DNA from: a virus | Length of the DNA stretch: 24,208 nt | Reading direction: 5' to 3' (one strand) | IMG/VR virus record: IMGVR_UViG_3300010883_000457 | Span: 1 to 24,208 of that record | Shown here: positions 6,584 through 24,208 of the stretch, one piece after another | How positions within the stretch are numbered: the first letter of the stretch is position 1 | Layout of the letters: every line of letters starts with the position of its first letter | The notes under the pieces: generated by a model | The model's database searches: none | Seen by the model: the letters and a program-made list of their open reading frames with translations, nothing else | What the model was told of the DNA's origin: nothing | Made by a program: the position numbers and the translations under genes

Positions 6584-7138
6584 TTAAGCGATGGTTCCTA
6601 TATTACTACCAAAGAAAGATGGCACTGTGATAGTACCATAATCGATATCTATTGCTAATTGCATAAACTGTGCATGATTCACAATGTTTGGAACAAATTC
6701 ACCAAAGTCTAATTGTGTTTGAAATACTGCACTTCCTTCATCTGCTGTGTTTGTAATTGTTAAGACATTATTAACCATTGCAGTGTTTATGCCAGCACCG
6801 CCAATGATACGGAATGTTTCACCGTCATCAACATTACTACTACCTGCATCAGTAGTTACTAGTATGCCTTGTAAATTTGCACTAATTTGAATATCATTGC
6901 CTGCAACTGCGGCAACTGCCATTCCTGTTCCTGCTGTTAAATTTTTAAATTGTAATGCATCACCCGATTTACCAGCAAAAATTGCAACTCCTGTACCTAT
7001 ACCAGCACCTGTTGTTGACTCTGGTTGACGTAGGTCTAGTTCATCAAAGTTTTCGTTTACTTTGCGAAATGCTTCACGTAGATCATCACCTGTGCCATCG
7101 TTAGCAATATTACCAATGTTAATGTTTTGTATTGTCAT
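6584..7138 (-). CDS. Short tail-fibre-like protein with shared N-terminal motif (184 aa)
   Basis: Residues 3-34 contain INIGNIANDGTGDDLREAF followed by RKVNENFDEL, the cleanest copy of the N-terminal motif shared with the 321-aa and 2462-aa genes. The rest is Gly/Ala/Thr-rich and beta-predicted, with a phage-fibre look (GAGINTAMVNNVLTITNTAD at about 113-132). It lacks a recognisable receptor-binding end and may be a connector or short fibre. A late-promoter octamer lies 18 nt upstream of the ATG, with AAGGA between. The 823-aa gene follows after one base. Confidence 0.78.
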   Translation of the reverse strand: MTIQNINIGNIANDGTGDDLREAFRKVNENFDELDLRQPESTTGAGIGTGVAIFAGKSGDALQFKNLTAGTGMAVAAVAGNDIQISANLQGILVTTDAGSSNVDDGETFRIIGGAGINTAMVNNVLTITNTADEGSAVFQTQLDFGEFVPNIVNHAQFMQLAIDIDYGTITVPSFFGSNIGTIA

Positions 7139-7180: not shown

Positions 7181-10100
7181 TTATACATCTGCTGTATTAG
7201 TATTAGGATACGCTCTACCTGATCCCCAGATAATTCTAACAGCACCGTCTCCTGCATAACCTGTTGCACTTGAATAACCTGCTCCGCCTCCGTACTGTTT
7301 TCCAGATCCGCCACTTCCAGGGCTACCTGGATACGTGTAGCCATAAATGCTTTCTCTAGGTGCGCCACCTGCACCACTTGTACCTTCTCCAAGTATGCCT
7401 ACGCCGCCACCATGTGATGGAAGAGCCTGATAGCCAGGACCACTACCGCCACCACCGCCGCCTTGGCCATCGCCACCACGACTGTTTGTAGTAGCATTAC
7501 CACCACCACCACCATCACCAGAATAACCGCCAGCACCGCCTGCACCGCCGCCTTGGCCGGAACCAATGCCGCCTCCACCACCTAAGCCGCCACCGCTGGT
7601 TGCTATAGAGTCAGGAGTGAAACTACTTGATCCACCGTCTCCTCCGTGGTTAGTTCCTCTTGCACCAACAACAACAGTGTATGATTGCCCTGCTGTTACT
7701 GCTCCAGTAATCCACTGAAGGCCGCCTCCACCGGATCCACCTCTAATTTGTTGGGCACCAGCACCGCCGGACTTAGTACCACCAGCACCGCCATCGCCAC
7801 CAGTTATACCAACACCACCGTTGGACGAACCACCGCCTCCGCCAACCATAACGACACTAACTTCAGTAACACCCTCAGGAGCAACCCACGAATAAGTACC
7901 CGGAGTTGTATATGCCGTTTGACCTGCTAGTGTTCCACTTGTATCGTTAATTGTAACGCTTTGTGTTACACCTAGATCATCTAATGTCATTAAGAATATT
8001 TCTGTACCTTCAGTTACTGCGTCAGACATCACAGCATATGTAAGTTGGGCACTATTACTTTGTACTGTAAGTGTACCAGTTAGTGCCACCCCGCCAATAT
8101 CTGCACTTGTAACACCTGTAATTGTATACGGAACATTCGAACCGTTTGTTACATTTGTAGTATCTAATGTGATTGTGAAACTTTGTCCTTCGTTTATGCT
8201 TGAAGCACTCGAAGTTAATGCATAAGTCGAAGCACTTGAAACTGGTTCTGCTTGTACGCTAATATCAAGCACCATTTTATATTCAACATATGCTGATACA
8301 CTAGTACTAGTAGTACCATTTACTAATCCGCCTGCTGTTGCTGTATTATCATCAATGGTCATACCTAAGTCGTGTGTAAGAAGCGGTGAATTACTATCTA
8401 CGCTAATACTACCATGTACTTCGTATGCCCAATCTTCAACTGTTAATAAATCTGAATCTGCATCAGCCTGGTTAATTGGAACACTTGCAATAACTCCGCC
8501 TACTCTACCAACGCCTGTTTGTGTACTAGAAACTCCATAACCACTTACCCACAGTCTATTATTTGGATTAAGCGTATTATCTAAACTACATTTATAAAGG
8601 CCTACATTTAAGTTAGCACTTGTACTAGTATGCAAGTTTCTAAATTTAACATTGCCAAGGGCGTCATCAAACGTTATAACCATGCCTCGTTTATTTGCAT
8701 TTGTATCATCTTTGTTTTGTTCACCTACACATACAATCTTATTGTTTCGTGTATCAAAATCAATATCTCTAAGTTTTGGATTACTTTGTCTGTAATCACT
8801 TGCTATAGGTTGTGTGTCTATGTCATTTAATACCCAATCAGTTGTAATAATACCTGTTAATGGATTAATTTTAAGTATATGTGATTGTTCATAATTTACT
8901 TGTGGATTATCAACATGACCTAACCCAATAATTGGATTATCATTTTCATCAATACAAATACCTGCTGGATTAAATCCAGTGCCTGTATCTGAATCTACAT
9001 ACCAACTCTTAGCCCATTGTTCTGTTAATGAACTATTAAATTTCCATAAACGTACTGCTGTTTCAGTATCGTCTGATTTAATTTCTGTACCATAAACATA
9101 AATGTTTCCTGTGCTATCTACAGCAACATCTTGTGCTTGTCCATGTTTACTTGTTGGATTTGCTTTTCTAACTGTCAATGTATCACCGTTACTAACATCA
9201 ATTTTAATAACCCATAATCCGCTATCTAAATTTTGTAAGTAGTTTGCACCTACAGCAATAATATTTCCATCACTAGCAAATGCCATTGCTGTAATAGCAA
9301 CACCATTACCGTCACCGTCGGAATAATTACGTTGCCACTGTACTGTGCCTGAAGCATTTAGTTTTGTAATATATGCATCACTTGGATAATCTGCACTAGG
9401 TGTATTAGTTTCCCAATTCCACGAACCGCTGTAACCAACATAAATATTTTCTGAATTATCAGAAACTGCACTTGTAACTATATAGTTTGAACTAAATGAT
9501 CTTCTCCAAATCGGAGAGCCTCTATCAGTATATTTTACCATAGCACACGATTTATTACTTCCGCTATCTATTTGCTCTATAACGATTGAACTATTACTGC
9601 CTGCGTGAGCAACGAATTGGAATGTTGTATTTGCTGTACGTAAAGTATTAAATCCAAAGTGTGTAGTTACCCAATGTTTATCTGCTAGATAAATTTCACC
9701 ATTCATATCATTGTGTATGCTACATTGATAATACTTACGACCGCCTTTTGTAGGAGTATAACTAATACCACTATTTTGAGTACCTTGCCCTATAACGCCA
9801 TTAGTTTGATTATTTGCTCCACTGCCTTGTACATCTTTAATATAAAATGGATGCCCGCTTGCATTAACAGTCCAACTTATAGTATCACCTCTGTCAATAA
9901 CTATAGCAGGATTAAGTCCACTAATTGTTCCATTTCTATCATTACCTGTAGTCCATGTGTATCCTCCAGCACCGCTGTTGGTAACACCACCTGGCAATGA
10001 AATTTGGGTGCCATCACTAGTATCATTAATTGTAATATCAATATCTTGGGCGTTATCAGTCATGAATGGAAGATAATGGTTAGTATCAACTTGTGTAGTT

Positions 10101-13100
10101 GCTGTTAGGCTTTCAATAAGTTTAAGGTTCATTGTTTCTGTACCATCAAACGTATTGTCTGCTGTTATATTAAATGTTTTACTATTTGCAACTTGGGTTA
10201 ATGACCCTCTAATATTTCCATAAGCAGTAGTTAGACCAGTAATATCAATATCGCTTGTACCTACACCAGTAATTTCATACGGTATTAATATCTGTGGATC
10301 TGTTGTACTTAGGTTAGTATTAACACTAACTGTAACTGTACTACCTTCGTTTGCATTTGTTTTGTTTGATGCTAGTGTATATTGCGGTGCTTCGAACTTA
10401 TCTCTACTTCCTGGATACATAATCCAAATGCCGCCATCTTGGCCTGTCTCTGCTCTATTTGTACTGCCTGATGTTGCAAGGCCCATAACAAGTACACCAC
10501 CTGCTCCTGCACCAACTTCATAACTTGTTGCTGCCGGCGTTACTGCAGATATGTTGTTACCCTGTTGGCCAGCAACACCTGTTTTTACTACGCCTGCACC
10601 TGAGATAGATAACGTTGGTGGAGTAGTTGTAGCCAAGCCTCCGCGATTACTTGTTACTTCTCTAGTAAGAGTAGCACCGCCGCCTATAGCACCATAAGTT
10701 ATTCCTGTGCCACTTTGCCAATTTTCAACATATCCATGCCCGCCGCCAGTACCTGCAGTTTGTTGTGGTATAACTGCAATGTTACCTTCAGGCGATAAAT
10801 TAATTTTTGCTAGTTGTACAGTATTTAAATCCGTAGCACTAGTACCAACACCGCCTCTAAATTCAATTATTGTTGCATCACCTAGCCCAGTGTATCCTGT
10901 GTTCCTTGCAAACGTTAATCCGCCATAAGATGTAGTTGTTTCAATTGAAACACCGTTACTTACATTTGCAAAATTGTATTGAGCATTTGTACCACTAAAG
11001 GATGATGTACGAATAGTATCAAATCCTTTAGATAAGTTTTTGTAAACCTGTAATGGAGCATTACTACCATTTCTTACAAGAATATAATACGCATCATAAT
11101 CTTGACTCTCTTCATTTACCCATGTTCCTGAAGTTGCTAAAATTTGATTTATTCTATTTTCTAAGATATAAGCATATTCATTTCCATAAGATCCTGCATA
11201 TACATTAAAGGTAAATTGAATTTGACTTGAATAACTTAAATTGATTGCACTAACTGTTGTTGATGCAGGTGCAGTCCAGTTATACGGCGAAGTTTGACCA
11301 TTTACATTAGGATCTAATATTTGATTCAATGGATATCCTGAGCCACCTGTGCTTCCAGCACCAGCGCCACCGCCGCCACCGCCAACAACTGCTGACCCGG
11401 TATTAAATCTCATCGAGTCTCCACCTGCACCACCGGCTTTACCAATATTCCACGCACCAGTAGTAGTGCCGCCTGCACCGCCTATCTTACGTTCAAAAGT
11501 TTTTGGTTCTAAAGAACTTAATGCTATTGCTGGACTTGTTTGTCCGCCACCTGCTGTATATGTAACACTGCTATAAGTTACTGTAGTGTTGCCACCTGCA
11601 TTACTACCAGCGCCTCCGGCGCCTACACTATAACTAATAACTTGACCCGGAGTTACTGAAAGATTATTAATAATTCCAACTGCACCCGAACCTGCACCAC
11701 CTGTAACTTGGCCTGCACCTAGTGGCGATGAGGTACCTGTTCCGCCGCCTGCACCTACAGCCATAATACTAACACTTGTTACATTAGTTGGAACTGTAAA
11801 TGTTCCACTACCAGTTGTTGTTATAACTTCGTCACCAGCAACTAATGTTGTACTAGTATCGTTAATTGTAACACTTGTTGAAATATTGTCTATTGTAGTT
11901 AATGCTATAACAAATGTTTCAGACCCTTCAGTTGTAAAGTCTGCATTTACTGTAAAGGTTGCTCGGGTAACACTTCCTGTAGTATAAGTTCCTGATAGTG
12001 ATCCTGTTGACAGATCAGTAGCACTAATTCCAGTAACAACATATCCAAGCACTACTCCAGGAATTCCATTATCAACGTTTAAGTCGACATAAAAACTTTC
12101 ACCTTCGTCAACTGCACCAATACTTGCAACTAAGTTGTATGTAATAGGTGAGTTACTTGTATCGTTAATTTGTACTGTAATAGTTTGACTTGCGGATTCA
12201 AAATATAAAGTTTCAGACCCTTCTAATGAACCATCTGCGGCAATAACATATGTACGTGTTATATCCGTTCCAACAACAAAATTACCTGTTAAAGGTTCCC
12301 CACTAATATCTGCTGAATCAATACCTGTAATTGTATACGGTACAGTTGTACCAGATAACACATTAGTTGCTGTTAAAGTAATTGTAACTGATTCCCCTTC
12401 GCCTAAACTATCTCTTGTACTTGTAAGAGCGTAAGTCGGATCTGGTTTGCTAGTATCAGCAATAATTACGCTGACATTTTTGCCTGCTTGATCATCTAAT
12501 GTCATTAAGAATGTTTCATTGCCATTATCAAATTCATTATCTTCAGATGCGGTGAATGTTATTATTTGGTTAGTACCTATAATAAAAGATCCAGTTAGTG
12601 ATGCACCGCCAATATCTGCACTTATAATGCCTGTAATTGTGTAAGGGACAATTGTTCCGTTTACAAGACCAGTAGTAGTTAACGTAACTGTAAACTGTTG
12701 CCCTTCATTTACACTAGAAGCACTTGCGGTTAATGCATATGTTGCTTCAACAGCGCCTGCATCTGCGACAATAGTTTCATCGCCAGCAATAGTCATAACG
12801 CTTGCTTGGTTATATGGTTGGAAAGCATAAGCATTTGTTCCGCCCATTAAACTTCTATAGTTTGTATAATCTGAACCAGTATTACCATTAACATCTAATT
12901 GCTCTTTGGCATTGGTAGTTACCCATGTTTTTCGTTGTGCTGGAGTTGAACTAGGTTGTATCTCACCATACGTTGCTATTAGTCCTGCAATCTGTGGAGC
13001 CGCCATAGACGTACCACCTATGTTTGCAATTCTAAATGAAGTGCTACCATACGGGCCATCATTAAAACTATTTGTATTACTAGTAGCACTAAAAATATTT

Positions 13101-14305
13101 ACACCCGGTGCATACACATCAACTCCAGGACCCTTTTCAGAAAATACTGCTACTTGTTCATTTCCATCTGCGTCTAATGCACTATCAATAGCACCTACCA
13201 TAAGAGCCTTTGTACTAAAAGGTGATCCACCTCTATGATAGTATATTGTTTGACCAAAGGCATTTGTATAATAGTTGTTATAATCTACATCAGTAGATGT
13301 TGCAATTTTATGGTAATTGTTGCCAGCGGCAATTACAACTGTAACACCAGCATCGATAAGTTCATCTACATCAGCATCAACACTTGCAAGTCGTGCAGGA
13401 TGTCTATGACCTGTTCCATCAAATGAACCAGTCATTCCGTAACCGTCTACTTTAGTATTTCCTGACCATTCTGATCCTCTATATGATCCGCCGGTAACAC
13501 TTAGATATCTACCAATGTAACCCCAACTCATGTTTATAACTGTTGGACGTTTTTGCCCAGTTAATACATCTGGAGTTTTTGCTTTGTGCCATTCTTTAAC
13601 AACATCAAAAATATCACTAATAGGCATACCGCCGTTTGGATCACTAGAACCTTGTAAGCCTCCAACTTTAATTGAATAAATCTTTGAATTCTTAGCCCAG
13701 CCATATGTTTTACCAACTGCTGTACCTGCAACATGTGTGCCGTGCCCGTCATAGTCTGTATAAAACCCTGCTGGTAATGTTCCACTTACTACCGACTGTG
13801 CTTGATACCAATCAATTTCTTGTACTCTAGTGTTACCAAAAGAGTCTTGGAATTCTGGATGGTCTGCTTGTATACCTGAGTCTTGTATAACAAAATCAAC
13901 ACCTGTACCTGTAAGTGTGTGCGTATAACCGCCTACTACTGCGCCGTTGGAATTATAAGGATTTGACAACGCACTCATTCTGCGTAGTCCCCAGTTTAAA
14001 CTTGCTCCACTGGTTAAAGATGATTTATTAAAGTCGCCTACTTGTGTAGCCGCTCTTACAATACTGACATCGTCTCGCAAGTCAGGTCTTAGTTCAACTG
14101 CTTCTACTCTTTGGTCATTTTCTAATTCAACTGCTTCTTGGTCAGTAAGCATATAGTGAGTATTTCTTTGCGAGCCTGGTCTTTCATTTGCAACCGTAAC
14201 CGCTTTGGTCGGAACATAAGGTAGCATATTATCTGCTATCATATCTTGCCTAAATGCTATGGGATCTACATCTTTATGCAGAGTAACAATGTATTCTTTT
14301 TCCAT
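7181..14305 (-). CDS. Giant virion-associated subtilisin-like protease with Calx-beta, cupredoxin, propeller and glycine-rich domains (2374 aa)
   Basis: Multidomain protein. Residues 1-80 look like an I9-type propeptide (EYIVTLHKDVD start). Residues 130-445 form a proteinase-K-like S8 domain with Asp142 (QDSGI), His188 (DGHGTHVAGT), Asn329 (AAGNN) and Ser433 (GGTSMAAP). Calx-beta-like repeats follow at 523-619, 624-717, 722-818, 1309-1430 and 2027-2123, most ending INDTS. Glycine-rich modules lie at about 826-990 and 2130-2374, the second ending GAVRIIWG. A region at 1010-1180 has no assigned fold. A cupredoxin-like domain (1433-1542) carries His1485, Cys1528, His1531 and Met1534. Propeller-like repeats (GNIYVYGT, NIIAVGA) span about 1560-1990. 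There is no signal peptide. AAGGA precedes the ATG. Placed between fibre genes, it is probably a tail-fibre or tail-tip component that can digest surface or released protein; its location in the virion is inferred. Confidence 0.88.
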   Translation of the reverse strand: MEKEYIVTLHKDVDPIAFRQDMIADNMLPYVPTKAVTVANERPGSQRNTHYMLTDQEAVELENDQRVEAVELRPDLRDDVSIVRAATQVGDFNKSSLTSGASLNWGLRRMSALSNPYNSNGAVVGGYTHTLTGTGVDFVIQDSGIQADHPEFQDSFGNTRVQEIDWYQAQSVVSGTLPAGFYTDYDGHGTHVAGTAVGKTYGWAKNSKIYSIKVGGLQGSSDPNGGMPISDIFDVVKEWHKAKTPDVLTGQKRPTVINMSWGYIGRYLSVTGGSYRGSEWSGNTKVDGYGMTGSFDGTGHRHPARLASVDADVDELIDAGVTVVIAAGNNYHKIATSTDVDYNNYYTNAFGQTIYYHRGGSPFSTKALMVGAIDSALDADGNEQVAVFSEKGPGVDVYAPGVNIFSATSNTNSFNDGPYGSTSFRIANIGGTSMAAPQIAGLIATYGEIQPSSTPAQRKTWVTTNAKEQLDVNGNTGSDYTNYRSLMGGTNAYAFQPYNQASVMTIAGDETIVADAGAVEATYALTASASSVNEGQQFTVTLTTTGLVNGTIVPYTITGIISADIGGASLTGSFIIGTNQIITFTASEDNEFDNGNETFLMTLDDQAGKNVSVIIADTSKPDPTYALTSTRDSLGEGESVTITLTATNVLSGTTVPYTITGIDSADISGEPLTGNFVVGTDITRTYVIAADGSLEGSETLYFESASQTITVQINDTSNSPITYNLVASIGAVDEGESFYVDLNVDNGIPGVVLGYVVTGISATDLSTGSLSGTYTTGSVTRATFTVNADFTTEGSETFVIALTTIDNISTSVTINDTSTTLVAGDEVITTTGSGTFTVPTNVTSVSIMAVGAGGGTGTSSPLGAGQVTGGAGSGAVGIINNLSVTPGQVISYSVGAGGAGSNAGGNTTVTYSSVTYTAGGGQTSPAIALSSLEPKTFERKIGGAGGTTTGAWNIGKAGGAGGDSMRFNTGSAVVGGGGGGAGAGSTGGSGYPLNQILDPNVNGQTSPYNWTAPASTTVSAINLSYSSQIQFTFNVYAGSYGNEYAYILENRINQILATSGTWVNEESQDYDAYYILVRNGSNAPLQVYKNLSKGFDTIRTSSFSGTNAQYNFANVSNGVSIETTTSYGGLTFARNTGYTGLGDATIIEFRGGVGTSATDLNTVQLAKINLSPEGNIAVIPQQTAGTGGGHGYVENWQSGTGITYGAIGGGATLTREVTSNRGGLATTTPPTLSISGAGVVKTGVAGQQGNNISAVTPAATSYEVGAGAGGVLVMGLATSGSTNRAETGQDGGIWIMYPGSRDKFEAPQYTLASNKTNANEGSTVTVSVNTNLSTTDPQILIPYEITGVGTSDIDITGLTTAYGNIRGSLTQVANSKTFNITADNTFDGTETMNLKLIESLTATTQVDTNHYLPFMTDNAQDIDITINDTSDGTQISLPGGVTNSGAGGYTWTTGNDRNGTISGLNPAIVIDRGDTISWTVNASGHPFYIKDVQGSGANNQTNGVIGQGTQNSGISYTPTKGGRKYYQCSIHNDMNGEIYLADKHWVTTHFGFNTLRTANTTFQFVAHAGSNSSIVIEQIDSGSNKSCAMVKYTDRGSPIWRRSFSSNYIVTSAVSDNSENIYVGYSGSWNWETNTPSADYPSDAYITKLNASGTVQWQRNYSDGDGNGVAITAMAFASDGNIIAVGANYLQNLDSGLWVIKIDVSNGDTLTVRKANPTSKHGQAQDVAVDSTGNIYVYGTEIKSDDTETAVRLWKFNSSLTEQWAKSWYVDSDTGTGFNPAGICIDENDNPIIGLGHVDNPQVNYEQSHILKINPLTGIITTDWVLNDIDTQPIASDYRQSNPKLRDIDFDTRNNKIVCVGEQNKDDTNANKRGMVITFDDALGNVKFRNLHTSTSANLNVGLYKCSLDNTLNPNNRLWVSGYGVSSTQTGVGRVGGVIASVPINQADADSDLLTVEDWAYEVHGSISVDSNSPLLTHDLGMTIDDNTATAGGLVNGTTSTSVSAYVEYKMVLDISVQAEPVSSASTYALTSSASSINEGQSFTITLDTTNVTNGSNVPYTITGVTSADIGGVALTGTLTVQSNSAQLTYAVMSDAVTEGTEIFLMTLDDLGVTQSVTINDTSGTLAGQTAYTTPGTYSWVAPEGVTEVSVVMVGGGGGSSNGGVGITGGDGGAGGTKSGGAGAQQIRGGSGGGGLQWITGAVTAGQSYTVVVGARGTNHGGDGGSSSFTPDSIATSGGGLGGGGGIGSGQGGGAGGAGGYSGDGGGGGNATTNSRGGDGQGGGGGGSGPGYQALPSHGGGVGILGEGTSGAGGAPRESIYGYTYPGSPGSGGSGKQYGGGAGYSSATGYAGDGAVRIIWGSGRAYPNTNTADV
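7937..8227 (-). repeat. Calx-beta-like repeat 5 in the protease gene
   Basis: Residues 2027-2123 of the giant protein. It opens YALTSSASSINEGQSFTITL and ends VTINDTSG. It is very close to repeat 1 (12449-12739): both share NEGQ.FT.TL, VPYTITG, SADIGG..LTG and FLMTLDD, although about 1400 residues separate them. Confidence 0.8.
9680..10009 (-). other. Cupredoxin-like domain inside the protease gene
   Basis: Residues 1433-1542. The order is a beta strand (ISWTVNASGHPFYI), a loop and the closing motif KYYQCSIHNDMNGEI. The expected type-1 copper ligands are His1485, Cys1528, His1531 and Met1534. The C-x2-H-x2-M spacing is that of amicyanin rather than plastocyanin (C-x2-H-x4-M). Copper binding is inferred. 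Confidence 0.75.
10016..10381 (-). repeat. Calx-beta-like repeat 4 in the protease gene
   Basis: Residues 1309-1430, the most divergent copy. It keeps YTLASNKTNANEGSTVTVSV, IPYEITGVGTSDI and the terminal ITINDTSD. It lies directly before the cupredoxin-like domain. Confidence 0.7.
11852..12142 (-). repeat. Calx-beta-like repeat 3 in the protease gene
   Basis: Residues 722-818. It has VDEGESFYVDL, VTGISATDLSTG and the end SVTINDTST. It is followed at once by the first glycine-rich module. Confidence 0.75.
12155..12436 (-). repeat. Calx-beta-like repeat 2 in the protease gene
   Basis: Residues 624-717. It has LGEGESVTITL, VPYTITGIDSADISG and the end VQINDTSN. It is tandem with repeats 1 and 3. 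Confidence 0.75.
12449..12739 (-). repeat. Calx-beta-like repeat 1 in the protease gene
   Basis: Residues 523-619, shortly after the catalytic domain. It has NEGQQFTVTL, VPYTITG, SADIGGASLTG and FLMTLDD, and ends IIADTSK instead of the usual INDTS. Confidence 0.75.
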
Positions 14306-14322: not shown

Positions 14323-15288
14323 TTATAATGCCGCTATTCTTGTTTTGAAGTCTGCAAAGTCTGCACTCGCCGCTACTTCTGTTTTTAGTGTTGACAAAGC
14401 AACTCCAGTTACTGGTGCTGTCCAAGCATATCCTGATGCTGATTTTGTAAGTACATCACTTAGATTACCGCCTGGTAACAAGTCGCCTATACTGTCAGGA
14501 ATGGCGTCTGCATTATCTGTAAGTTGTGATATATCTGTTTTAATTAAGTTTGATGCATCTGCTAAACTAGAAACGTCAGTCGGAATAACTGCACCACTAT
14601 CTGACAGTTGTCCTACATCAGTAAGTGTCATGTTTCTCCACTGACCGTTAATGTATGCTTCAACATGACCTGTTTGTGTATTAGCAACTATAAAGCCTTC
14701 GGTAGTAAATGCGTTACGTCCTGCTGAATCATAACTTGGTGGAATAACTTTTGCAAATGCATTTACATTTAATGTTCCGTTCACATTAAGTGTAGAACTG
14801 CTATGACCTATTTCAACATCACCACTTCCAGTATCAAAACCAATCTGTATGCTTTGACCTGCTGTTCTAATTGCTACACCTGAATTTGAAAAAAGTATAA
14901 TTCCGTTTTGGCTAACTTGCACATAATCTTGTGCGGCACTTTCTTGTAGTGTAATTATACCTTGTGCTTTTAATGTTATGTTTGCATTTGTGCCTGTGTT
15001 TGTAGTAGTAAGTTCAATGTTTGAATCTACAACGTCCCAAGTTGTGCTTGCGATAGGACCTACAATTTTACCATTGTTACCGTCAACTAGTAGTGTACTA
15101 TCAGTTGCATTTACACTACCAATAGTATCTACAATTAGTGTGCCGCCTCCTGTTTGTGCTGACTTAACTTGTTTTAAATCAAGATATAATTCGTTGAAGT
15201 TATCATTTACTTTATCAAATGCTGTGCGTAATGGATCACCATCACCTTTGTTAGCACTTGTACCTAAGTTAACTATTTGTTTTGCCAT
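14323..15288 (-). CDS. Tail-fibre-like structural protein with shared N-terminal motif (321 aa)
   Basis: Residues 4-35 carry the shared motif (VNLGTSANKGDGDPLRTAF then DKVNDNFNEL). The middle (about 50-230) is a beta-rich, Ser/Thr/Gly-rich fibre with short repeats such as GTLNVNAFAK, plus a stretch FIVANTQTGHVEAYINGQWR resembling the surface-loop segments of other phage fibres. The C-terminal end is helical (ALSTLKTEVAASADFADFKT then RIAAL), which may help trimerise. The ATG shares one base with the stop of the 2462-aa gene (TAATG). The protease gene follows 17 nt later. Its role as an accessory fibre is inferred from motif and context. Confidence 0.8.
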   Translation of the reverse strand: MAKQIVNLGTSANKGDGDPLRTAFDKVNDNFNELYLDLKQVKSAQTGGGTLIVDTIGSVNATDSTLLVDGNNGKIVGPIASTTWDVVDSNIELTTTNTGTNANITLKAQGIITLQESAAQDYVQVSQNGIILFSNSGVAIRTAGQSIQIGFDTGSGDVEIGHSSSTLNVNGTLNVNAFAKVIPPSYDSAGRNAFTTEGFIVANTQTGHVEAYINGQWRNMTLTDVGQLSDSGAVIPTDVSSLADASNLIKTDISQLTDNADAIPDSIGDLLPGGNLSDVLTKSASGYAWTAPVTGVALSTLKTEVAASADFADFKTRIAAL

Positions 15289-18200
15289 TATACTTTTCCT
15301 ACTACGATTTCAATTACACCTTTATCAGTACTATCTTTGGCTTGCAATGCTTTACCAATTACTGTACCAATAGTTGGATTATTATTAACTATTGCATATC
15401 CTGCAATAGCACTTGACACTAACATGTCGCCTGGTACTACCCGTCCAAGTACTTTACATGGAACTCTACCAGTTAGTGCAACTGGAGTAACAAACTCACC
15501 TTGCAATGCACTATTCATTAAGTATGCAGGTTTTTCACTAACAACACCAATTACTTTAGCATCACCTTTAGTAGTTGTTGTTGTAATTTCTTTTGTGCCG
15601 CCTAGTACAATAACTGTACCTGGCTCATGCTCTGCATCTGCTGAATAATTCTCTGCTAAGTCAGCGTATTGTGCAGACGTTGCTTTACCATCAAACACTG
15701 TTGCATAAACTGTATTGTATTTTAACGCACTTGAGCCAATGTTATATGTAGTTGTTACATCTGGAACAACACCTGTTGCACTAAATTTAAATGGTGCTTT
15801 GGTAGCCGCTGAATCTTTAACAAGAATACTAACTTCGCCTGCGGATGTTTTACCAGTTCCTGCACCTAGTGCAATACCTGTTGAACCTGTACCTTTTTCA
15901 TTAGCCGCTTCAATAAATTGTGTGTAAATCCAATCTGAACTTAAACGTCCTTCATTGTTATATGTTGAGTTTTGTTGTAATGTACTCTGTGTGTTTGCTC
16001 CACTAGCATCAATATCAATACTAGCACTAAACTCTGCTGTAATAGCACTTGTACCTGTTGCTTCAAGTATTGTAGCACCACCCGGTGTTAGCATTTGAAT
16101 TGTTGTTGCCGCACCTGTCTTTGGTTGTAAAATTACATACCCATCATCACTACCAACAATAAGACCAGTTGTTCTAATCTTACCATCTGCCTTTGTCATT
16201 ACAAGACTGCTGTTACCACCAGTTTGTGTAATAGGATTTGCTGCCGCACTTGCCGAAGCACCACTAATATTTGTTAGTGCAGTCATATTCGCAATAGGCA
16301 CAATATCAGATAAGTCAATGTTACCTGTTTTGAGTGTTACCCAACCATTTGTTACACTAAAGTCACCATCATCAAAACTTGCAAGTCCTAAATCTGTTTG
16401 TGCAATACCTGTAGCATTTGCTCTAGTACTTGCGGCATTCATATTCAATTTGCTTTGTGCTATTGCCGCTGTTGCACTTACATCAGCATTTACAATACTA
16501 CCATCTTTGATATCGTAACTTACTCTGTACTCGTCTGCAAGTCTAGTACCAATCATTTCAATCTGACTGCCACTTGCAGGAGTAGCGTTTGCCATCTCAT
16601 GATGTGGGCCACTTGTTATTGTGCCTGTTGGTTGTGTAACTAGTCCTGTTGTACCAGTAATAGTTGCCGCTGTAATTGCTCCACTACCATCAACTGAAGT
16701 AATGTTAATTGTTGCATTGTTTGCTGGTGTTGCTCCGCCTAAGTCTGCACCAGCGACTGTAAATGTCTCTGCCGCACTATAACCCGAACCTGCTGTTGCA
16801 ATAGCAACGCTGTAACCAGTACCACGTCCAACATTAAATGTTGCACTTGTACCTGCACTTGCTGTAGTAGTTGTTGGTGCTTTTGTATAAACTTCTGTGT
16901 GTACAGATGCTTGTGTAAATGTACCTGTAAGTTCTTTATAAACAACTCTTTGTACGTTACCAAGTACGCCATCAGTTTCTGAAACAATGTCATAAATTTC
17001 ACCAGTGTTTCCGCCTTGTACTAATTTACCATTTGCTGTTAATGGACCGTTAGCAATAGCAGTCGAGTCAATCATTATAACTCTGTAACCAGTTCTGTGC
17101 ATTAATTGATCTTTGTAGAAGTCTGCATCAGTTGATGCACTAGCACTTGCTGGTTTTTCAAGACTTACATCTCTCATACCATCTACAGTATTGTATTGTT
17201 CTACAACAGTATCAACGTATGCTTTATTAACTGCATCTGAATCTTGTGATGGAGCCGCTAAGTTAATAATACGCTTACTGGCCATATTAAAGTTGCCAGT
17301 CATTGAGATCGAACCATCTCTAGCAATAGCGCCACCGCCAATTACATTGTTAACTGCAAGTCCGTTATGATCCCATCCTAAGCGTCTGTTTACATAACCA
17401 CGCACTGCGTTTTGTGTTGGAACAATGTCTGAACCGTTTTGCGTCATGCCATCGTCAGTACTAAATTCACTAACAACAACACCACGTTTAAATCCAATAC
17501 CGTCCAAGTTACTTAACGCAATACTACCTGCGAATGTAACTGTACCAGTACCTTGGTCAACTGTAAAGAATCTACCTACACGGAAGAAACCATCTTGGTC
17601 TGTACTTACATAAAAACATCTACCCTTGGCACGCTCTTGTACTTCGTATGACTGATTTGGTTGTCTTGGAGCACCAAGTAGTACGTTTGGATAGTTACTA
17701 GTGTTGTATGACCCTGTACCAATGTCTAAGAAGTCATGTCCTGTTGCTCTTGTAAGTGATATGTTAATTGTAATATCACCCGGAGCACCTGATGGTAAAC
17801 CAATTCTAATTGTATTTGCTTGGCCACCACCTAGTGTAACTGCGGCATGGATGCCTGTTGCATTTGATGTTAAGTTGTGATCAACAAATCCACTTGGGTT
17901 AGTTGCATCAACAACATCTGCAATTTTAATAACTGCATAACCTACAAAATCTAAGTAGTCAGTTACTTTATGTAATTTACCTTCCCAACTAAAGATCATG
18001 TTACCTGCACGTAGTCTTGCAATGTCTGAAACTTCAGTAAGTTCTGCAACCGCAATACCCACGTCACCTTTAGTTGCACCTAGTGTAGTGCCGCCAAAGC
18101 CTGCCGCTGGCGTATCGCCTGTATGGTTAGTGTCTACAATAACTCTAACGTAATCGTAAGTAGCATCAAAGCCCATTAAGATTTCGTCACTTGGTAAGTT

Positions 18201-21200
18201 TTCGCCTGTTGTTTCTGTAGTTGTAAATTCTGTTGTTCTAAATGTATATCCTGGACGCTCGTCAAATTCAAACGCTGTACTTGGTCGAATAGTAAGTCTA
18301 CCGGTGTCTAACACATTATCAACAACAACAACTTGGTTATGTCTATACGAAACAAAGTGCTTTTGACTCACACCTTCAATTAAACCATCATTACTAAATC
18401 CTGCTGTTGCAGTACTAAAGTTTAGTTTGAAAACTTGACCGTCATATATTGGTGTGTCTGCTGTAACAACTACTGTACCAGCGGCTGTTACTGTTAGAAT
18501 TTTACCATCAGCATCAACGGTTGCAACTGTAATTGTACAATCGTTTGTTGTTGTAGCACCGTCTAGTTTTGTACCATCTACAACAAATGTATCGCTTACT
18601 GTATATCCTGTACCTGCGGCAATAATGTGTGCAACATATGTTCCGCTACTCTGACGTGTTTTCTGCACATCAAATTTAGCACCAGTACCTGAACCTACTG
18701 CTGTGTATGCTACATCAAGGTGTCCGTCTACTCTAAAGTTTATAACTTTAGCAATACTTGAAACTTCATATCTTCCGTAAGTTCCGTTAGAGTGTAAAAG
18801 GTTAATTTCACCTCTGTTTTGCGGTAATGACTCAAAGTCATATGCGTGTACATTTAGTTGTTCTGCTGTAAGCAATAAGCCAGCGGCACTTACATCAGCC
18901 GCCGCACCTTGGTTTACACCGTTAACTGTAATATCGTTTGTTGTGTTGAATGTGCCTGTTGCTGTTTTTAAGTAAAGTCTTTTACCTTCTGTGCCAAATA
19001 CTACAACACCTGTTGCACCACTAACTGCTTGAGTCACTGCCTGACCTGCTACACAAGCGGCAGACATAACATCAGCAAAGTCGATTATAACTGCGGCTTC
19101 TGCTGTTTTAGCAACCTTAGCCATGTTATCACGTAGTGTAACTGCGTCTGGAACTTCGTTTGGATCACTACCGTTAGCAACCAGTCCATATTCACCATAT
19201 GCGTTTGAGCCGTTAAGTGATCTAATTTCACCACCGTTGTTTGCATAGTATGCTGTCCAACAGTAGTAAGTAAACTGTGATACCATTTCTGATAATGCAC
19301 CGTTTGTAACTACTAGTCCATAGCCTAAGTCGTTAACTTGTGTAAAGTCATTACCTAACATACTTCTGTTACCAGCAGTTTGTACAGTAATTTCAACTGG
19401 GTTAACTGAACTTGCACTGTCTAGTGTAACTGATCCGTATAATGTTCCTGTCCAACCTACTTTAGAGTTTGAACTTGGATCAAGTATAAGTGTTGCTGTA
19501 CCTAGTGTCGGATCCCAATCTCTAACTGCGTTAACTTGGAAACGTCTACCTTCCATATAGAACGGAGCAGGTACTTGTGGTTTCTTAATAAACAATCCCT
19601 GTCCTGCTTGTGAACGCACATCAACTTTAAATGCTGTTTGCTTGTTAATAACTTCCATAGGAACGTTACCAACAAATGCGTCAACAAACATACCGCCTCT
19701 AAATGCTTGTCTGTTTAATGACTGTGAGAAACTTGAACCTGTTTGACAGTAAGGTGACTTAGTAAGCACTTGTCCATCTGGGTCAAGTACCATCATAAAT
19801 CCACCGTGTCCTGTAACAGAACAGTTTCTTACAATAGTACCGTCGTTACACAAGAACACATCAAGTTGGTTGTTATTTTTTGGTGGGTTAATGTTTACGT
19901 TAAATGCAAACGCCACACAATCAACAAGTGCATCTAAGTTTGTATATGCTGTTGCTTCAGCAGTTAAACTAGTATCAATAATCTGTACTTGGTTTGCTTG
20001 GGTTGCTGTAACTGTATTATTTGCTAAAATTGTATTTGCAAGTGTACTAATGTATTGTATTGCCGCTTCAGTTTCTGTTTCTTGACCATTAACTGCACCC
20101 GCATAATATGCACCTTGGTTTGTTAATGATTCTTGACGTCCGCCGTAACTCAAATCTGCCGCTAGACCTTTTACAATTAATCTTGTATCTCTACGACATT
20201 TTGTTTGGCTATATGATAGTGAAGGATAAGTTGTGTTTATATAACTAATAACTTCTTCAACAATAAATTCTACGTTTTTAGTAATAATCTTACTTGCTTG
20301 TTTAAATTTACCTGGGTTAGTAATACCAAAGTTACTTACGTTTGTATCTTTTGTTGGATCTGTAAGATAGTGTTTACCAAACCAACCAATTGGGTTACCA
20401 GTTAATGGGTTAACATAACGTGAACCGCCTGTTGGCATGTTTGTATCTTTAACACCTGTTACACTAGTTCCCGCATCTCCAGTTAGTCCATCAAATATAT
20501 CGTCACGGTAGAAGTATACGTTTGCCCATTTTGATTGCGAACTACCTTTCTTAGGTCTAATAATTACTCGTCTAAACTCGTCACCTTTAAGTGATACGTT
20601 TGCAGGTAATCTGATTGGAAAATGCTCGTTATATGTACCTGATTCAATTCTAATACTAATTTGATTAAATTTAATTGTATTTGCATATTCAAGTTCTTCG
20701 CCTACTATAAAGTCAGTTGGCTCAAGTAATTGCAATTCAAGTATGTCTGTATTAGCAGGGTTGCTTGGATTTAAGTCTTCACTTAAATATTCAACAACTC
20801 TACCCAATGCGCCCGACTCTTTACCTCGGATAACTTTGCCTGGCAAGATGTCTGTATTGTTTGGGTCACCTTGGTCAACGTAACTATTTGTGCCGCCATT
20901 ACCAAATTGAATGTTGTATGTACTACCGTCAACAATAGCAGGTGCATCAAATACATTGCCGTCGTTGATAATACCCATAATAATATCAAATTTTGCACCA
21001 ACAGAGTTACGTGCTGTTGCATCTGTTTGATATCCACTATTAATGTATTGTGGATATAAAGTTTGGAACGTTGTACCTGGACTTAAATTTTGCAGTACAA
21101 CATCAACAAGTGCTTTAACAAATGTAATACCTGCAAGTGTTTCAGTTTTTTGTGTTGTAATTGCCGCTGTTGCACTTGCATTAGCATAATACCTAAGACC

Positions 21201-22676
21201 AGCACGTCTTGAAAGGAAGTTAGCATTATTACCTGTTAGTGTATCAAGTATAACGGCATCAACCATAAGTCCTACATCGCGAGCACAAGTATCGTTATCG
21301 TATTTAAAGTTAGGATAGGTAACATTAAGATATGCAATAGTTTCTGCTTTAATAAACTCTTTGTTTGGATCTAATAATGATTTAACACTACCACGTCCTG
21401 TTGGAATAGTTTTGACTGCTGCCGCACTAACTGATGTTGGTGTTACAAAAGACGTATGTGTAATTGTTTGTGCATAGTTACCTAGTTCAAACTTTGAAGC
21501 AATTTGTAATTCTTCTGCTCTACGTGCCGCCGCACCAATCGAAGCCAATGAATATGAACTACTTCTACCTGCTTTACCCGGTGCTGTAGTAAGAAATCTA
21601 TCATCGCCGCTATTTGAAACATATAAGTTTGATGAACTAATGCCTTCTTGCTGGTCAACGTATAATTTTGTTGCAAATTGTAAATCGTCTGCATCAGGGC
21701 CTACAGTACCTGCTAGAGCGCCTGGATGATCATGTGCAAATAATGCACCAGTCATTGTATCGCCTGCTCTACGTACTACACTCTTACGAGGTAATGCTTC
21801 GTTTGATAGATAGTAACCTGCTAAACTTGCGTCTAATCCTTGATCAACTAATGTATGTACGCTTGCAACTACTGTTCCTGTAATATTAACACTATCTGTA
21901 TTTGTAATAGCATCAGATGAACTAGTGTGCATACTAACTGAGTTGTCGTCAATAACACGAATGTAATAAATTGTATCTTTTACTAGCCCTGTTAATGCAG
22001 ACCCAGTTGACTTGTATTGATAACTTGCTCCATTACTTGCTCTGTCCAATCCGTGATCTTGAATATGTAGATCTTGTGTTGAAATTAAACCTGTAACTGC
22101 TAGAGTATATTCTGTAGCATCAGATGGTTCGTCACGCACACCGCCTTGCTTACCAGGACTAGTTGCTTTTGCATAACGTTGATCATTATATTCTTTGTCT
22201 GGAACAAGATCATGTATTGTGTAGTTGCCGCCATACTTACTAGTAAATGCTGTTGCACTTGCTGTTGAAATATCTACGTTACCAATTGCAAAGCCTGCCG
22301 CGCTAAGATGACCGCCTAGTTGTGGACTAGTATCACCTGCTACGTTTGTTTTACCTGCTTGTATTAAAAGTTTGCCTGCTTGTGTTACGTTAAACACAAT
22401 AGTATCGTCTGCAGGGTCACCTGTAATTGCACCGTTTGATACTAGTTCTAGTGCTTCCACGCCATCTTCTGATGTATTAACTGCAAGTACTCTACTTGCT
22501 AAGCCTGTATAATCATCTGGAGTGTCACTTAAACTTCTAAAGTTTATCTGTCCGCCGATTCCAAATACAGCATATAGTTCTTTAAAGTTTTCATTACCTT
22601 TGCGAAACGACTCACGTAAACTGTCACCAGTACCGTCATTGCCCTCTACACCAATATCAATTATTTCTCTTGCCAT
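15288..22676 (-). CDS. Giant tail-fibre / tailspike-like protein (2462 aa)
   Basis: Main fibre candidate. Residues 5-36 hold the shared N-terminal motif (IDIGVEGNDGTGDSLRESF then RKGNENFKEL). Phage-fibre segments with the MTG...K.YVD pattern lie at about 304-342 and 1791-1822. Two copies of a cysteine-containing helical module lie at 436-527 and 790-885. A pectate-lyase-like strand pattern (IRIESGTYNEHFPIRLPANV) starts at 675. Two copies of a Gly/Thr-rich beta module lie at 1328-1400 and 1940-2010. The last 130 residues start QYADLAENY (2336) and resemble C-terminal domains of marine phage fibres; some related domains act as intramolecular chaperones or self-cleave, but I cannot confirm that here. 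The start has GGAG upstream, 12 nt after the HesB-like gene. There is no polysaccharide-lyase active site I can name. Confidence 0.88.
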   Translation of the reverse strand: MAREIIDIGVEGNDGTGDSLRESFRKGNENFKELYAVFGIGGQINFRSLSDTPDDYTGLASRVLAVNTSEDGVEALELVSNGAITGDPADDTIVFNVTQAGKLLIQAGKTNVAGDTSPQLGGHLSAAGFAIGNVDISTASATAFTSKYGGNYTIHDLVPDKEYNDQRYAKATSPGKQGGVRDEPSDATEYTLAVTGLISTQDLHIQDHGLDRASNGASYQYKSTGSALTGLVKDTIYYIRVIDDNSVSMHTSSSDAITNTDSVNITGTVVASVHTLVDQGLDASLAGYYLSNEALPRKSVVRRAGDTMTGALFAHDHPGALAGTVGPDADDLQFATKLYVDQQEGISSSNLYVSNSGDDRFLTTAPGKAGRSSSYSLASIGAAARRAEELQIASKFELGNYAQTITHTSFVTPTSVSAAAVKTIPTGRGSVKSLLDPNKEFIKAETIAYLNVTYPNFKYDNDTCARDVGLMVDAVILDTLTGNNANFLSRRAGLRYYANASATAAITTQKTETLAGITFVKALVDVVLQNLSPGTTFQTLYPQYINSGYQTDATARNSVGAKFDIIMGIINDGNVFDAPAIVDGSTYNIQFGNGGTNSYVDQGDPNNTDILPGKVIRGKESGALGRVVEYLSEDLNPSNPANTDILELQLLEPTDFIVGEELEYANTIKFNQISIRIESGTYNEHFPIRLPANVSLKGDEFRRVIIRPKKGSSQSKWANVYFYRDDIFDGLTGDAGTSVTGVKDTNMPTGGSRYVNPLTGNPIGWFGKHYLTDPTKDTNVSNFGITNPGKFKQASKIITKNVEFIVEEVISYINTTYPSLSYSQTKCRRDTRLIVKGLAADLSYGGRQESLTNQGAYYAGAVNGQETETEAAIQYISTLANTILANNTVTATQANQVQIIDTSLTAEATAYTNLDALVDCVAFAFNVNINPPKNNNQLDVFLCNDGTIVRNCSVTGHGGFMMVLDPDGQVLTKSPYCQTGSSFSQSLNRQAFRGGMFVDAFVGNVPMEVINKQTAFKVDVRSQAGQGLFIKKPQVPAPFYMEGRRFQVNAVRDWDPTLGTATLILDPSSNSKVGWTGTLYGSVTLDSASSVNPVEITVQTAGNRSMLGNDFTQVNDLGYGLVVTNGALSEMVSQFTYYCWTAYYANNGGEIRSLNGSNAYGEYGLVANGSDPNEVPDAVTLRDNMAKVAKTAEAAVIIDFADVMSAACVAGQAVTQAVSGATGVVVFGTEGKRLYLKTATGTFNTTNDITVNGVNQGAAADVSAAGLLLTAEQLNVHAYDFESLPQNRGEINLLHSNGTYGRYEVSSIAKVINFRVDGHLDVAYTAVGSGTGAKFDVQKTRQSSGTYVAHIIAAGTGYTVSDTFVVDGTKLDGATTTNDCTITVATVDADGKILTVTAAGTVVVTADTPIYDGQVFKLNFSTATAGFSNDGLIEGVSQKHFVSYRHNQVVVVDNVLDTGRLTIRPSTAFEFDERPGYTFRTTEFTTTETTGENLPSDEILMGFDATYDYVRVIVDTNHTGDTPAAGFGGTTLGATKGDVGIAVAELTEVSDIARLRAGNMIFSWEGKLHKVTDYLDFVGYAVIKIADVVDATNPSGFVDHNLTSNATGIHAAVTLGGGQANTIRIGLPSGAPGDITINISLTRATGHDFLDIGTGSYNTSNYPNVLLGAPRQPNQSYEVQERAKGRCFYVSTDQDGFFRVGRFFTVDQGTGTVTFAGSIALSNLDGIGFKRGVVVSEFSTDDGMTQNGSDIVPTQNAVRGYVNRRLGWDHNGLAVNNVIGGGAIARDGSISMTGNFNMASKRIINLAAPSQDSDAVNKAYVDTVVEQYNTVDGMRDVSLEKPASASASTDADFYKDQLMHRTGYRVIMIDSTAIANGPLTANGKLVQGGNTGEIYDIVSETDGVLGNVQRVVYKELTGTFTQASVHTEVYTKAPTTTTASAGTSATFNVGRGTGYSVAIATAGSGYSAAETFTVAGADLGGATPANNATINITSVDGSGAITAATITGTTGLVTQPTGTITSGPHHEMANATPASGSQIEMIGTRLADEYRVSYDIKDGSIVNADVSATAAIAQSKLNMNAASTRANATGIAQTDLGLASFDDGDFSVTNGWVTLKTGNIDLSDIVPIANMTALTNISGASASAAANPITQTGGNSSLVMTKADGKIRTTGLIVGSDDGYVILQPKTGAATTIQMLTPGGATILEATGTSAITAEFSASIDIDASGANTQSTLQQNSTYNNEGRLSSDWIYTQFIEAANEKGTGSTGIALGAGTGKTSAGEVSILVKDSAATKAPFKFSATGVVPDVTTTYNIGSSALKYNTVYATVFDGKATSAQYADLAENYSADAEHEPGTVIVLGGTKEITTTTTKGDAKVIGVVSEKPAYLMNSALQGEFVTPVALTGRVPCKVLGRVVPGDMLVSSAIAGYAIVNNNPTIGTVIGKALQAKDSTDKGVIEIVVGKV
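16647..16859 (-). repeat. Gly/Thr-rich beta module, copy 2, in the giant fibre gene
   Basis: Residues about 1940-2010. It contains GTSATFNV, ATAGSGYSAAETFTVAG and TINITSVDGSGAI. It aligns with the copy at 18477-18695 over its whole length. Confidence 0.7.
18477..18695 (-). repeat. Gly/Thr-rich beta module, copy 1, in the giant fibre gene
   Basis: Residues about 1328-1400. It contains GTGAKFDV, IAAGTGYTVSDTFVVDG and TITVATVDADGKI. The common pattern is 'G..A.F.V ... AG.GY...(D/E)TF.V.G ... TI.(V/I)..VD..G.I'. Confidence 0.7.
20022..20309 (-). repeat. Cysteine-containing helical module, copy 2, in the giant fibre gene
   Basis: Residues about 790-885. It contains FIVEEVISYINTTYPSLSY, then TKCRRDTRLIV, AADLSYGG and GAYYAG. 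It is homologous to the copy at 21096-21371. Confidence 0.65.
21096..21371 (-). repeat. Cysteine-containing helical module, copy 1, in the giant fibre gene
   Basis: Residues about 436-527. It contains FIKAETIAYLNVTYPNFKYD, then DTCARDVGLMVDAV, LDTLTGNN and AGLRYYA. The shared pattern is 'FI..E.I.Y.N.TYP...Y....C.RD...(I/M)V'. Confidence 0.65.
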
Positions 22677-22688
22677 CTTATAACTCCA

Positions 22689-23051
22689 TTAAGCAGGTAT
22701 TGCTAGTTTGTCCACATCAAAGTTTACACTTACGCCACAACCACATGCTGATTGTGCGTTAGGGTTAACAATGTCAAACATTGACCCCATAATATCTTTT
22801 TTGTAATTAATTACGGTTCCAAATAAGAACATTATACTTGTGCCGCCTATAATGAATGTGCTACCTTCTGTGCCATAAATTATTGTGTCGTCATCAAGTA
22901 GTTCGTCTGCCGTAGCATATGTTCCCCATTCGTATTCAAAGCCTGCACAACCACCACCTTTTAGGTTAAGTGTTACTGCATAGCACTCATTTTCTTTACA
23001 AACCGAAGCAATCTGTGCTTTTGCAGTGTCTGTAAGTGTACAAATATCCAT
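22689..23051 (-). CDS. hesB: HesB/IscA-like A-type iron-sulfur cluster carrier (120 aa)
   Basis: A-type carrier fold that receives Fe-S clusters from the scaffold and passes them to target proteins. The length is typical. All three conserved cysteines are present: Cys35 in LKGGGCAGFEYEW, and Cys103 and Cys105 in SACGCGVSVNFD. The start at 23051 is supported by AAAGGAG 6 nt upstream. It lies directly upstream of the giant fibre gene, 12 nt away, and a late-promoter octamer precedes it, so it is likely expressed with virion genes. HesB/IscA genes recur in T4-like marine phages, where the target is not settled. It could serve a phage Fe-S enzyme or a metal site in tail proteins; this is inference. 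Confidence 0.9.
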   Translation of the reverse strand: MDICTLTDTAKAQIASVCKENECYAVTLNLKGGGCAGFEYEWGTYATADELLDDDTIIYGTEGSTFIIGGTSIMFLFGTVINYKKDIMGSMFDIVNPNAQSACGCGVSVNFDVDKLAIPA

Positions 23052-23404: not shown

Positions 23405-23568
23405 TCTTCACGTTTGTAAATTGTCCAAGCACCGTATGCTATTGCGGCATATGCTACTAAACTTGCAATCGGCTTAAAGATTAAAAATGCAATGCCTGCA
23501 CCAATTAGAACGGCTCCATCAAGAGTTGTTCTTTCGTTGAGTCTTGCTGTAATCCATTTTTTGACCAT
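23401..23568 (-). CDS. Small single-span membrane protein (55 aa)
   Basis: The product is 55 aa: a basic N terminus (MVKKWITARLNERTT), a hydrophobic region (about residues 19-49, perhaps one long or two short spans) and a charged end (YKRED). ATG at 23568 has GGAGAAG about 8 nt upstream. Its first 64 nt overlap the end of uvsE in another frame. Its stop interlocks tail-to-tail with that of the zinc-ribbon gene: the palindrome TTAA at 23401-23404 supplies TAA on both strands. It is a plausible conserved small phage membrane protein of unknown role. Confidence 0.65.
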   Translation of the reverse strand: MVKKWITARLNERTTLDGAVLIGAGIAFLIFKPIASLVAYAAIAYGAWTIYKRED

Positions 23569-24208
23569 GTTTCTTCTCCTATTACATATTTATTGTATAA
23601 TTCTATACTTGCTAGATTCTTGCATTTACTTTCACACATAATATCTGTATAAGGTAAAAAGGACAATGCCCATTCGTTAACTTTGTCGTTAGGGTAATAA
23701 TCACTATGCGCTCGTAGTTTGCCTTTTTTGTAGCCTGCTTCTAATAGTGCTGGCATATCAGGCATTGTGTTGTGTGCAAAGCCTTCGGGCAAATGCTCAG
23801 TCCTGCTATAAGAATAATGTATTGCAGGTCGAACACCACGCCACGAGTCTATTACGCGAGCAAATCTATCGTCGGTGGGTTGTATGTATTCACCTTCTCT
23901 TGCCCAGTGATGGTGTATGTCGAGTACAAGTGCGAGGTCGTCTGCAAGTTCAAGACTGTCTGCAATGCCCCACTTGTTTTCGTCGTTTTCGATTGTGATG
24001 GTGTTTCGCGCTTCTGGCGATAACCGCTTGAGGGCGGCTTTGATGCCTGCTGGACCATTGCGGCCTGATATATGTACGTTGCACTTAAAGTCTTGGAAGG
24101 ATTTCCCGTAACCCATATAGCGGATGACATCGGTGTGATATTCAAATTCTTCTATGCTCCTATCTACAATTTCGGGGTTGTCGCTTGCAAGTACAGTAAA
24201 TTGGCCTG
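23505..24208 (-). CDS. uvsE: UV-damage endonuclease UvsE/UVDE (5' end cut by window edge)
   Basis: TIM-barrel endonuclease that nicks DNA 5' to UV photoproducts, with structural kinship to endonuclease IV. About 234 residues are visible of roughly 280-300. Family landmarks in order: GQFTVLASDNPEIVDRS at the window edge; an ENDE motif (Glu43, counted from the in-frame Met at 24116); DIHHHW (Asp66, His68-70); a RPAIHYS loop (His100); HSDY (His137); and CESKCKN (Glu162). These are the expected metal-ligand positions except where noted in the findings. The reading frame stays open to the right edge, so Met24116 is internal. The 3' end overlaps the 55-aa membrane gene by 64 nt. It fits a phage of sunlit surface water. 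Confidence 0.9.
   Translation of the reverse strand, partial: GQFTVLASDNPEIVDRSIEEFEYHTDVIRYMGYGKSFQDFKCNVHISGRNGPAGIKAALKRLSPEARNTITIENDENKWGIADSLELADDLALVLDIHHHWAREGEYIQPTDDRFARVIDSWRGVRPAIHYSYSRTEHLPEGFAHNTMPDMPALLEAGYKKGKLRAHSDYYPNDKVNEWALSFLPYTDIMCESKCKNLASIELYNKYVIGEETWSKNGLQQDSTKEQLLMEPF

Follow-up and report, generated by a model that had tools for sequence, protein, structure and literature searches.

The giant open reading frame and its neighbors

The window analyzed in this study, i.e., the whole stretch of 24,208 bases, represents a complete IMG/VR record and harbors a cluster of tail-fiber genes, in which a giant open reading frame (ORF) with an N-terminal protease was identified:

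6584..7138, minus strand: downstream gp9/10-like fiber-connector gene, 184 aa (Pfam T4_gp9_10_N, 27.8 bits)
7181..14305, minus strand: giant multi-domain protein, 2374 aa, with an N-terminal S8 protease; ATG at 14305, stop codon ending at 7181
14323..15288, minus strand: upstream gene, 321 aa, with a gp9/10-like fiber N-terminus, located 17 nt ahead of the protease gene
15288..22676, minus strand: tail fiber of 2462 aa with a near-threshold Peptidase_G2 C-terminus

A preliminary description of this DNA had reported a proteinase-K-like protease at the N-terminus of a giant protein encoded between fiber genes, and both the ORF and its location were borne out. No internal stop codon was found in 7181..14305, Pfam placed the S8 domain at the N-terminus, and with gp9/10-like genes on both sides and the 2462-aa fiber nearby, the giant ORF belongs to the fiber gene cluster. 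The C-terminus of the 2462-aa fiber (window positions 15291-15809, minus strand) matched Peptidase_G2, a self-cleaving chaperone type, with 24.5 bits against a cut-off of 25. An IscA-like Fe-S assembly gene (22689-23051, minus strand) and a gene for a UV endonuclease (UvdE; 23505-24206, minus strand) adjoin the fiber cluster. Apart from these two, the window also codes for an 823-aa He_PIG Ig-like protein and for further T4-type replication and accessory proteins, namely a clamp-loader-like ATPase, MazG, a GroES-like protein, and a Pol III alpha-like fragment. The phage is a marine, T4-like myophage of the T4 superfamily. Assignment to a specific host was tried and abandoned, with Erwinia jumbo phages being closest for UvsE and Pseudomonas PA5oct-like phages for the clamp loader, all at less than 60% identity.

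Downstream of the protease, the giant protein consists of a series of modules:

11846..12748, minus strand: three internal repeats, Calx-beta/Ig-like by eye, residues 520-820 (internal BLAST matches)
11336..11818, minus strand: Gly-rich domain 1 (Gly_rich_2), residues 830-990 (Pfam PF21722, 35.9 bits for the whole protein and 25.1 bits for the slice)
9683..9994, minus strand: cupredoxin domain, residues 1438-1541, with the putative ligands H1485, C1528, H1531, and M1534 (ligand conservation, profile matches)
8336..9673, minus strand: beta-propeller-like repeats, residues 1545-1990 (NCBIfam matches below cut-off, Pfam match)
7184..7933, minus strand: Gly-rich domain at the C-terminus, residues 2125-2374 (Gly_rich_2; the slice scored 20.8 bits)

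Further copies of the Calx-beta/Ig-like repeats were detected by internal BLAST at residues 1305-1430 and 2020-2120, while a search of the internal repeats against Pfam matched no family. For the propeller-like region, NCBIfam profiles of the LipL53-type SBBP (42.5 bits, E = 3.4e-11) and the delta-60 repeat (E = 1.1e-6) were found, both under their curated cut-offs, and Pfam SBBP matched with E = 0.025; residues 1995-2373 were matched by phrog_4474. Comparison with close relatives, domain by domain, revealed identities of 82-92% for the propeptide and 77-84% for the protease, but of 48-87% for region 991-1190, while the C-terminal Gly-rich domain was missing or replaced. In eight close contigs the giant protein terminates around residue 2099, followed in several cases by a separate ORF of 324-332 aa. 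In a more distant relative (L017), identity was lower in every domain. Judged from these alignments, the pattern is that of a conserved enzyme with putatively exchangeable adhesin parts.

The S8 catalytic domain and its predicted propeptide

The N-terminal part of the protein is organized as follows:

14078..14305, minus strand: propeptide-like domain, residues 1-76, beta-alpha-beta-beta-alpha-beta (AF2 pLDDT about 77-95 over blocks)
14036..14077, minus strand: linker, residues 77-90, likely self-processing region (AF2; cleavage site predicted)
12806..13993, minus strand: Peptidase S8 (proteinase-K-like) catalytic domain, residues 105-500 (Pfam, AF2, Foldseek)
13880..13882, minus strand: catalytic Asp142 (homolog alignments)
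13742..13744, minus strand: catalytic His188 (homolog alignments)
13319..13321, minus strand: oxyanion-hole Asn329 (homolog alignments)
13007..13009, minus strand: catalytic Ser433 (homolog alignments; partly ascertained in the 89-row set)

By profile, residues, and predicted fold, this domain is a Peptidase S8 (subtilase) of the proteinase K subfamily. Pfam Peptidase_S8 matched residues 140-469 with 113.8 bits (E = 1.2e-32, cut-off 21.8), and the best sequence matches among solved structures (phmmer) were aqualysin-1, a keratinase, and proteinase K. The four residues already named in the preliminary description as an intact catalytic set aligned with the S8 positions and were invariant in 25 of 25 homologs of 26-83% identity, a set collected without the Ser motif. 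Such conservation at this divergence suggests that the protease activity is probably under selection. The same residues were invariant in an alignment of 89 rows, where only 29 columns were invariant altogether; for Ser433 this set is not independent, since the scan pattern included GTSMASP. Based on these 89 rows, an AF2 model of residues 1-505 reached a mean pLDDT of 91.6 and a pTM of 0.81, replacing an earlier model from ten close sequences (pLDDT 47.8). Structure prediction had been proposed as a check on the catalytic set, and the model displayed a proteinase-K/aqualysin fold, with ProteinT, keratinase, and aqualysin I ranking first in Foldseek and proteinase K close behind (target TM-score of 0.82-0.87). 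In three contigs (L019, L020, and L021), the catalytic domain carries an insertion of about 110 aa after protease residue 243.

Subtilisin propeptides follow the order beta-alpha-beta-beta-alpha-beta, and the model revealed the same order for residues 3-72, ahead of the catalytic domain; residues 81-84 were the sole internal stretch with a pLDDT below 50. The I9-like propeptide proposed earlier was thus retained as a predicted ferredoxin-like fold, but not as a sequence family: a Pfam search of residues 1-105 for I9 matched no family at E ≤ 1, so that the label of a Pfam I9 member was dropped and "I9-like" is used here for the fold only. The Foldseek list also included pro-subtilisin structures, but with an rmsd of about 22, the domain placement being unmatched. 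In agreement with the preliminary description, no hydrophobic signal sequence was found in the first 50 aa, in which the most hydrophobic 12-mer averaged 0.86 (Kyte-Doolittle). We infer a phage zymogen outside the secretion route that would be activated by self-cleavage. Proteinase K, aqualysin I, and keratinase (MEROPS S8A) belong to a family secreted with a signal peptide. The window protease resembles them in fold and catalytic residues but differs in being phage-encoded, without a signal peptide, and joined to fiber modules.

A family of phage proteases and an accompanying cupredoxin domain

While the protein had been treated as singular, relatives are encoded in at least 575 stretches of viral contigs from a single collection, and its giant form turned out to be neither the commonest nor the minimal one. 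Most members are stand-alone proteases of about 504-550 aa (c. 520 aa) beside a fiber gene, and in those of 504-535 aa, which form the majority, no evident anchoring domain was found; longer members gain C-terminal modules and reach up to 2414 aa. Since the stand-alone form is both minimal and commonest, the fiber domains are to be regarded as optional modules. Contig L121 displayed the gene order of the window with a stand-alone protease of 517 aa, which is consistent with the window giant being a protease gene fused to fiber modules. Among 64 loci dereplicated at 70% identity, 61 had another ORF lying no more than 100 nt ahead of the protease start, with a median gap of 11 nt. Most of these upstream genes were of the tail-fiber type, judged from both termini, and their C-termini fell into 12 unrelated groups, the largest comprising 36 of the 61 loci.

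A tblastn search against phage records revealed 63 records, nearly all from T4-like phages of Synechococcus or Prochlorococcus, several of which are isolates with a gene already annotated as "subtilisin-like serine protease" or "peptidase". The core enzyme is therefore already known as an annotation. PHROG 9158 corresponds to the protease family; its profile of 696 positions runs through the S8 region and has the cupredoxin at its end. A bacterial origin of the gene was considered and rejected, as the two full-length matches of the genome scan (L120 and L121) were both flanked by phage fiber genes; the remaining matches, in cellular genomes, had identities of about 23-42% and were mostly confined to the catalytic domain. 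L120 (a Neomarinimicrobiota MAG) and L121 (a Rickettsiales MAG) carry phage tail-fiber clusters in contigs binned as bacterial and, given the fiber genes around both matches, are probably phage contigs in metagenome bins. A match to the Acinetobacter "phage" MD-2021a was set aside, its flanking genes being bacterial. In two contigs, an S8 protease of 684/718 aa was followed in tandem by an S8 protease of another type with about 510 aa (L041, 4707-8312; L060, 4816-8536).

Among annotated relatives, the stand-alone "subtilisin-like serine protease" of T4-like cyanophages (PHROG 9158; T4-GC 292), e.g., of S-H38, S-H9-1, S-WAM2, Sf-FR1, P-SSM2 (gp297), and S-RSM4 (gp39), shares with the window protease the propeptide plus S8 architecture, the catalytic set, and the place after a fiber-type gene. 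These proteins mostly have 551-723 aa, lack the giant fiber extension, and are about 28-37% identical to the window protease. Closer in layout are S-SCSM1 ORF228 (1411 aa) and a protein of ACG-2014h (974 aa), in which an S8 N-terminus is likewise fused to long C-terminal modules; those of S-SCSM1 are of the Laminin-G type and the ACG-2014h protein ends in a cupredoxin, while the window has its repeat, Gly-rich, and propeller set. The "peptidase S8" giant of S-BM3 (T4-GC 519, 2648 aa from coordinates; L118, 5122-12306) also combines S8 with a cupredoxin, but there the cupredoxin (residues 295-395) is embedded in the S8 domain, unlike in the window; no match to the propeptide was obtained, the S8 match starting at profile position 103. 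No paper on a subtilisin-like protein or subtilase, or on a cupredoxin, in connection with phage tail fibers was found in the open-access literature. New in this study are the giant protease-fiber fusion and its coupling to a domain with copper ligands.

This latter domain and the size of the family had both been missed in the preliminary description. In 23 phage copies of the cupredoxin, the only invariant columns were His, the Pro next to it, Cys, His, and Met. Residues 1438-1541 matched the NCBIfam amicyanin profile with E = 4e-4, under the curated cut-off, and a profile built from the 23 copies matched copper nitrite reductase, amicyanin (5.6e-5), and plastocyanin (9e-5), i.e., in a range of about 5e-5 to 1e-4. 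Spacing of the type Cys-x2-His-x2-Met is that of the type-1 copper set of amicyanin. By ligand pattern and profile, residues 1438-1541 thus look able to bind copper at a predicted type-1 site. Amicyanin and plastocyanin share the His...Cys-x2-His-x2-Met set and the profile match but are free electron carriers, whereas the phage cupredoxin is a module of tail proteins and a putative copper binder. It accompanied the protease in 33 of the 64 dereplicated loci, fused in 17 and encoded by an adjacent gene in 16, while 29 loci had none. In non-fused loci, 17 of 20 cupredoxin ORFs directly adjoined the protease against 8.1 expected at random (P about 5e-5, with loci still partly related). The domain often forms the extreme C-terminus of a tail protein, and with invariant His/Cys/His/Met it recurs in tail proteins of T4-like phages (L003, L004, L019, L020, L027-L031, and L119).

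Probable virion residence and possible role of the protease

Display of the protease on the virion, as inferred in the preliminary description, found indirect support in a single homolog, which is 29% identical to the window protease. This protein of cyanophage S-SCSM1 (QFG06492.1, ORF228) combines S8 with a C-terminal lectin-like Laminin_G_3 domain and is marked as "virion protein" in its record. For S-SCSM1, 45 proteins were determined by mass spectrometry of CsCl-purified virions (PMC9602691), compared to 48 such marks in the record. Among the marked proteins are the three non-structural ones that the paper names, and some obvious structural homologs, e.g., ORF17, are unmarked, so that the marks seem to track detection rather than mere homology. 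By analogy with this one marked homolog, of which the detected part is unspecified, and with the mass spectrometry paper, the window protease is likely virion-borne. BFVD names the S-SCSM1 protein "Baseplate wedge subunit"; a fold match there was the S-CAM1 protein considered a putative proximal tail fiber.

We consider it about an even chance (c. 50%) that the proteinase-K-type serine protease is a tail-fiber-associated virion enzyme acting on host surface proteins at adsorption. It would be a late product, present in the host cytoplasm as a zymogen, with the N-terminal propeptide folding the enzyme and holding it inactive until it frees itself by cutting near residues 77-90. The protease would then be borne on the fiber/baseplate complex encoded immediately upstream, and in the lineage of the window the fused fiber modules (Ig-like repeats, Gly-rich domains, cupredoxin, and propeller) may hold or aim it. 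At contact, it would trim host-surface proteins, so that the receptor is reached or exposed. The S8 match and fold, the invariant catalytic residues, the propeptide-like N-terminus with its low-confidence linker, the lack of a signal peptide, the placement behind fiber-type genes, the mark on the S-SCSM1 homolog, and the fused partners, being adhesin-like and variable beside a conserved protease, speak for such a virion enzyme, while the stand-alone majority without an evident anchor speaks against it.

The main rival reading is an assembly protease that trims neighboring fiber or baseplate proteins, or itself, as a maturation step, either intracellularly or on the virion under assembly. Its conserved placement directly after a fiber gene and the near-threshold Peptidase_G2 domain of the neighboring fiber would fit, and other phage fibers are known to undergo self-cleavage; furthermore, with one C-terminal cluster accounting for over half of the upstream genes, a shared fiber substrate is possible. 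However, no common cut-site partner was seen among the 12 groups of upstream C-termini, a broad enzyme of the proteinase K type is unlikely as a site-specific maturase, and the neighboring fiber may own a self-cleaving domain. The unrelated C-termini and this possible G2 end mildly weaken a dedicated role in fiber maturation, which we regard as a serious but rather unlikely alternative. Self-release, in which the protease splits off the C-terminal fiber modules to give two products with only the fiber part kept in the virion, appears improbable: although the protease is a separate gene in most relatives and the giant ORF of close ones lacks the Gly-rich part at its C-terminus, the fusion is stable in more than ten related contigs.

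Even less probable is a role outside the virion, with a late protease degrading host proteins at lysis or scavenging debris and the fiber link reflecting operon timing only. Subtilases are often broad degraders, and the unanchored stand-alone forms would suit this role, but the fusion to fiber modules, the fixed position in the fiber cluster, and the virion mark on the S-SCSM1 homolog argue against it. Retention of the S8 fold as an inactive scaffold for structure or binding is very improbable in view of four catalytic residues kept invariant in very divergent members.

Returning to the virion enzyme, its frequent companion permits a more speculative extension, to which we give only a small probability: marine T4-like phages may carry a paired fiber module of a proteinase-K-type protease and a copper-binding cupredoxin tip, which would act together at adsorption, with the copper domain docking to a component of the host surface and the protease cutting the surface layer. 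If true, the pair would be an entry device of metalloprotein plus protease, for which no description was found.

Enzymes cleaving sugars and peptidoglycan are known from phage tails. A protease of broad specificity on fibers would, if true, represent a different way through the host surface, and the at least 575 related stretches suggest that it is widespread among aquatic T4-like phages. A separate question, on metals in tail fibers, is raised by the recurrent copper-ligand domain next to the protease and is likewise testable, and the protease family as such allows one to test directly in which ways cyanophages and related phages handle proteinaceous cell surfaces.
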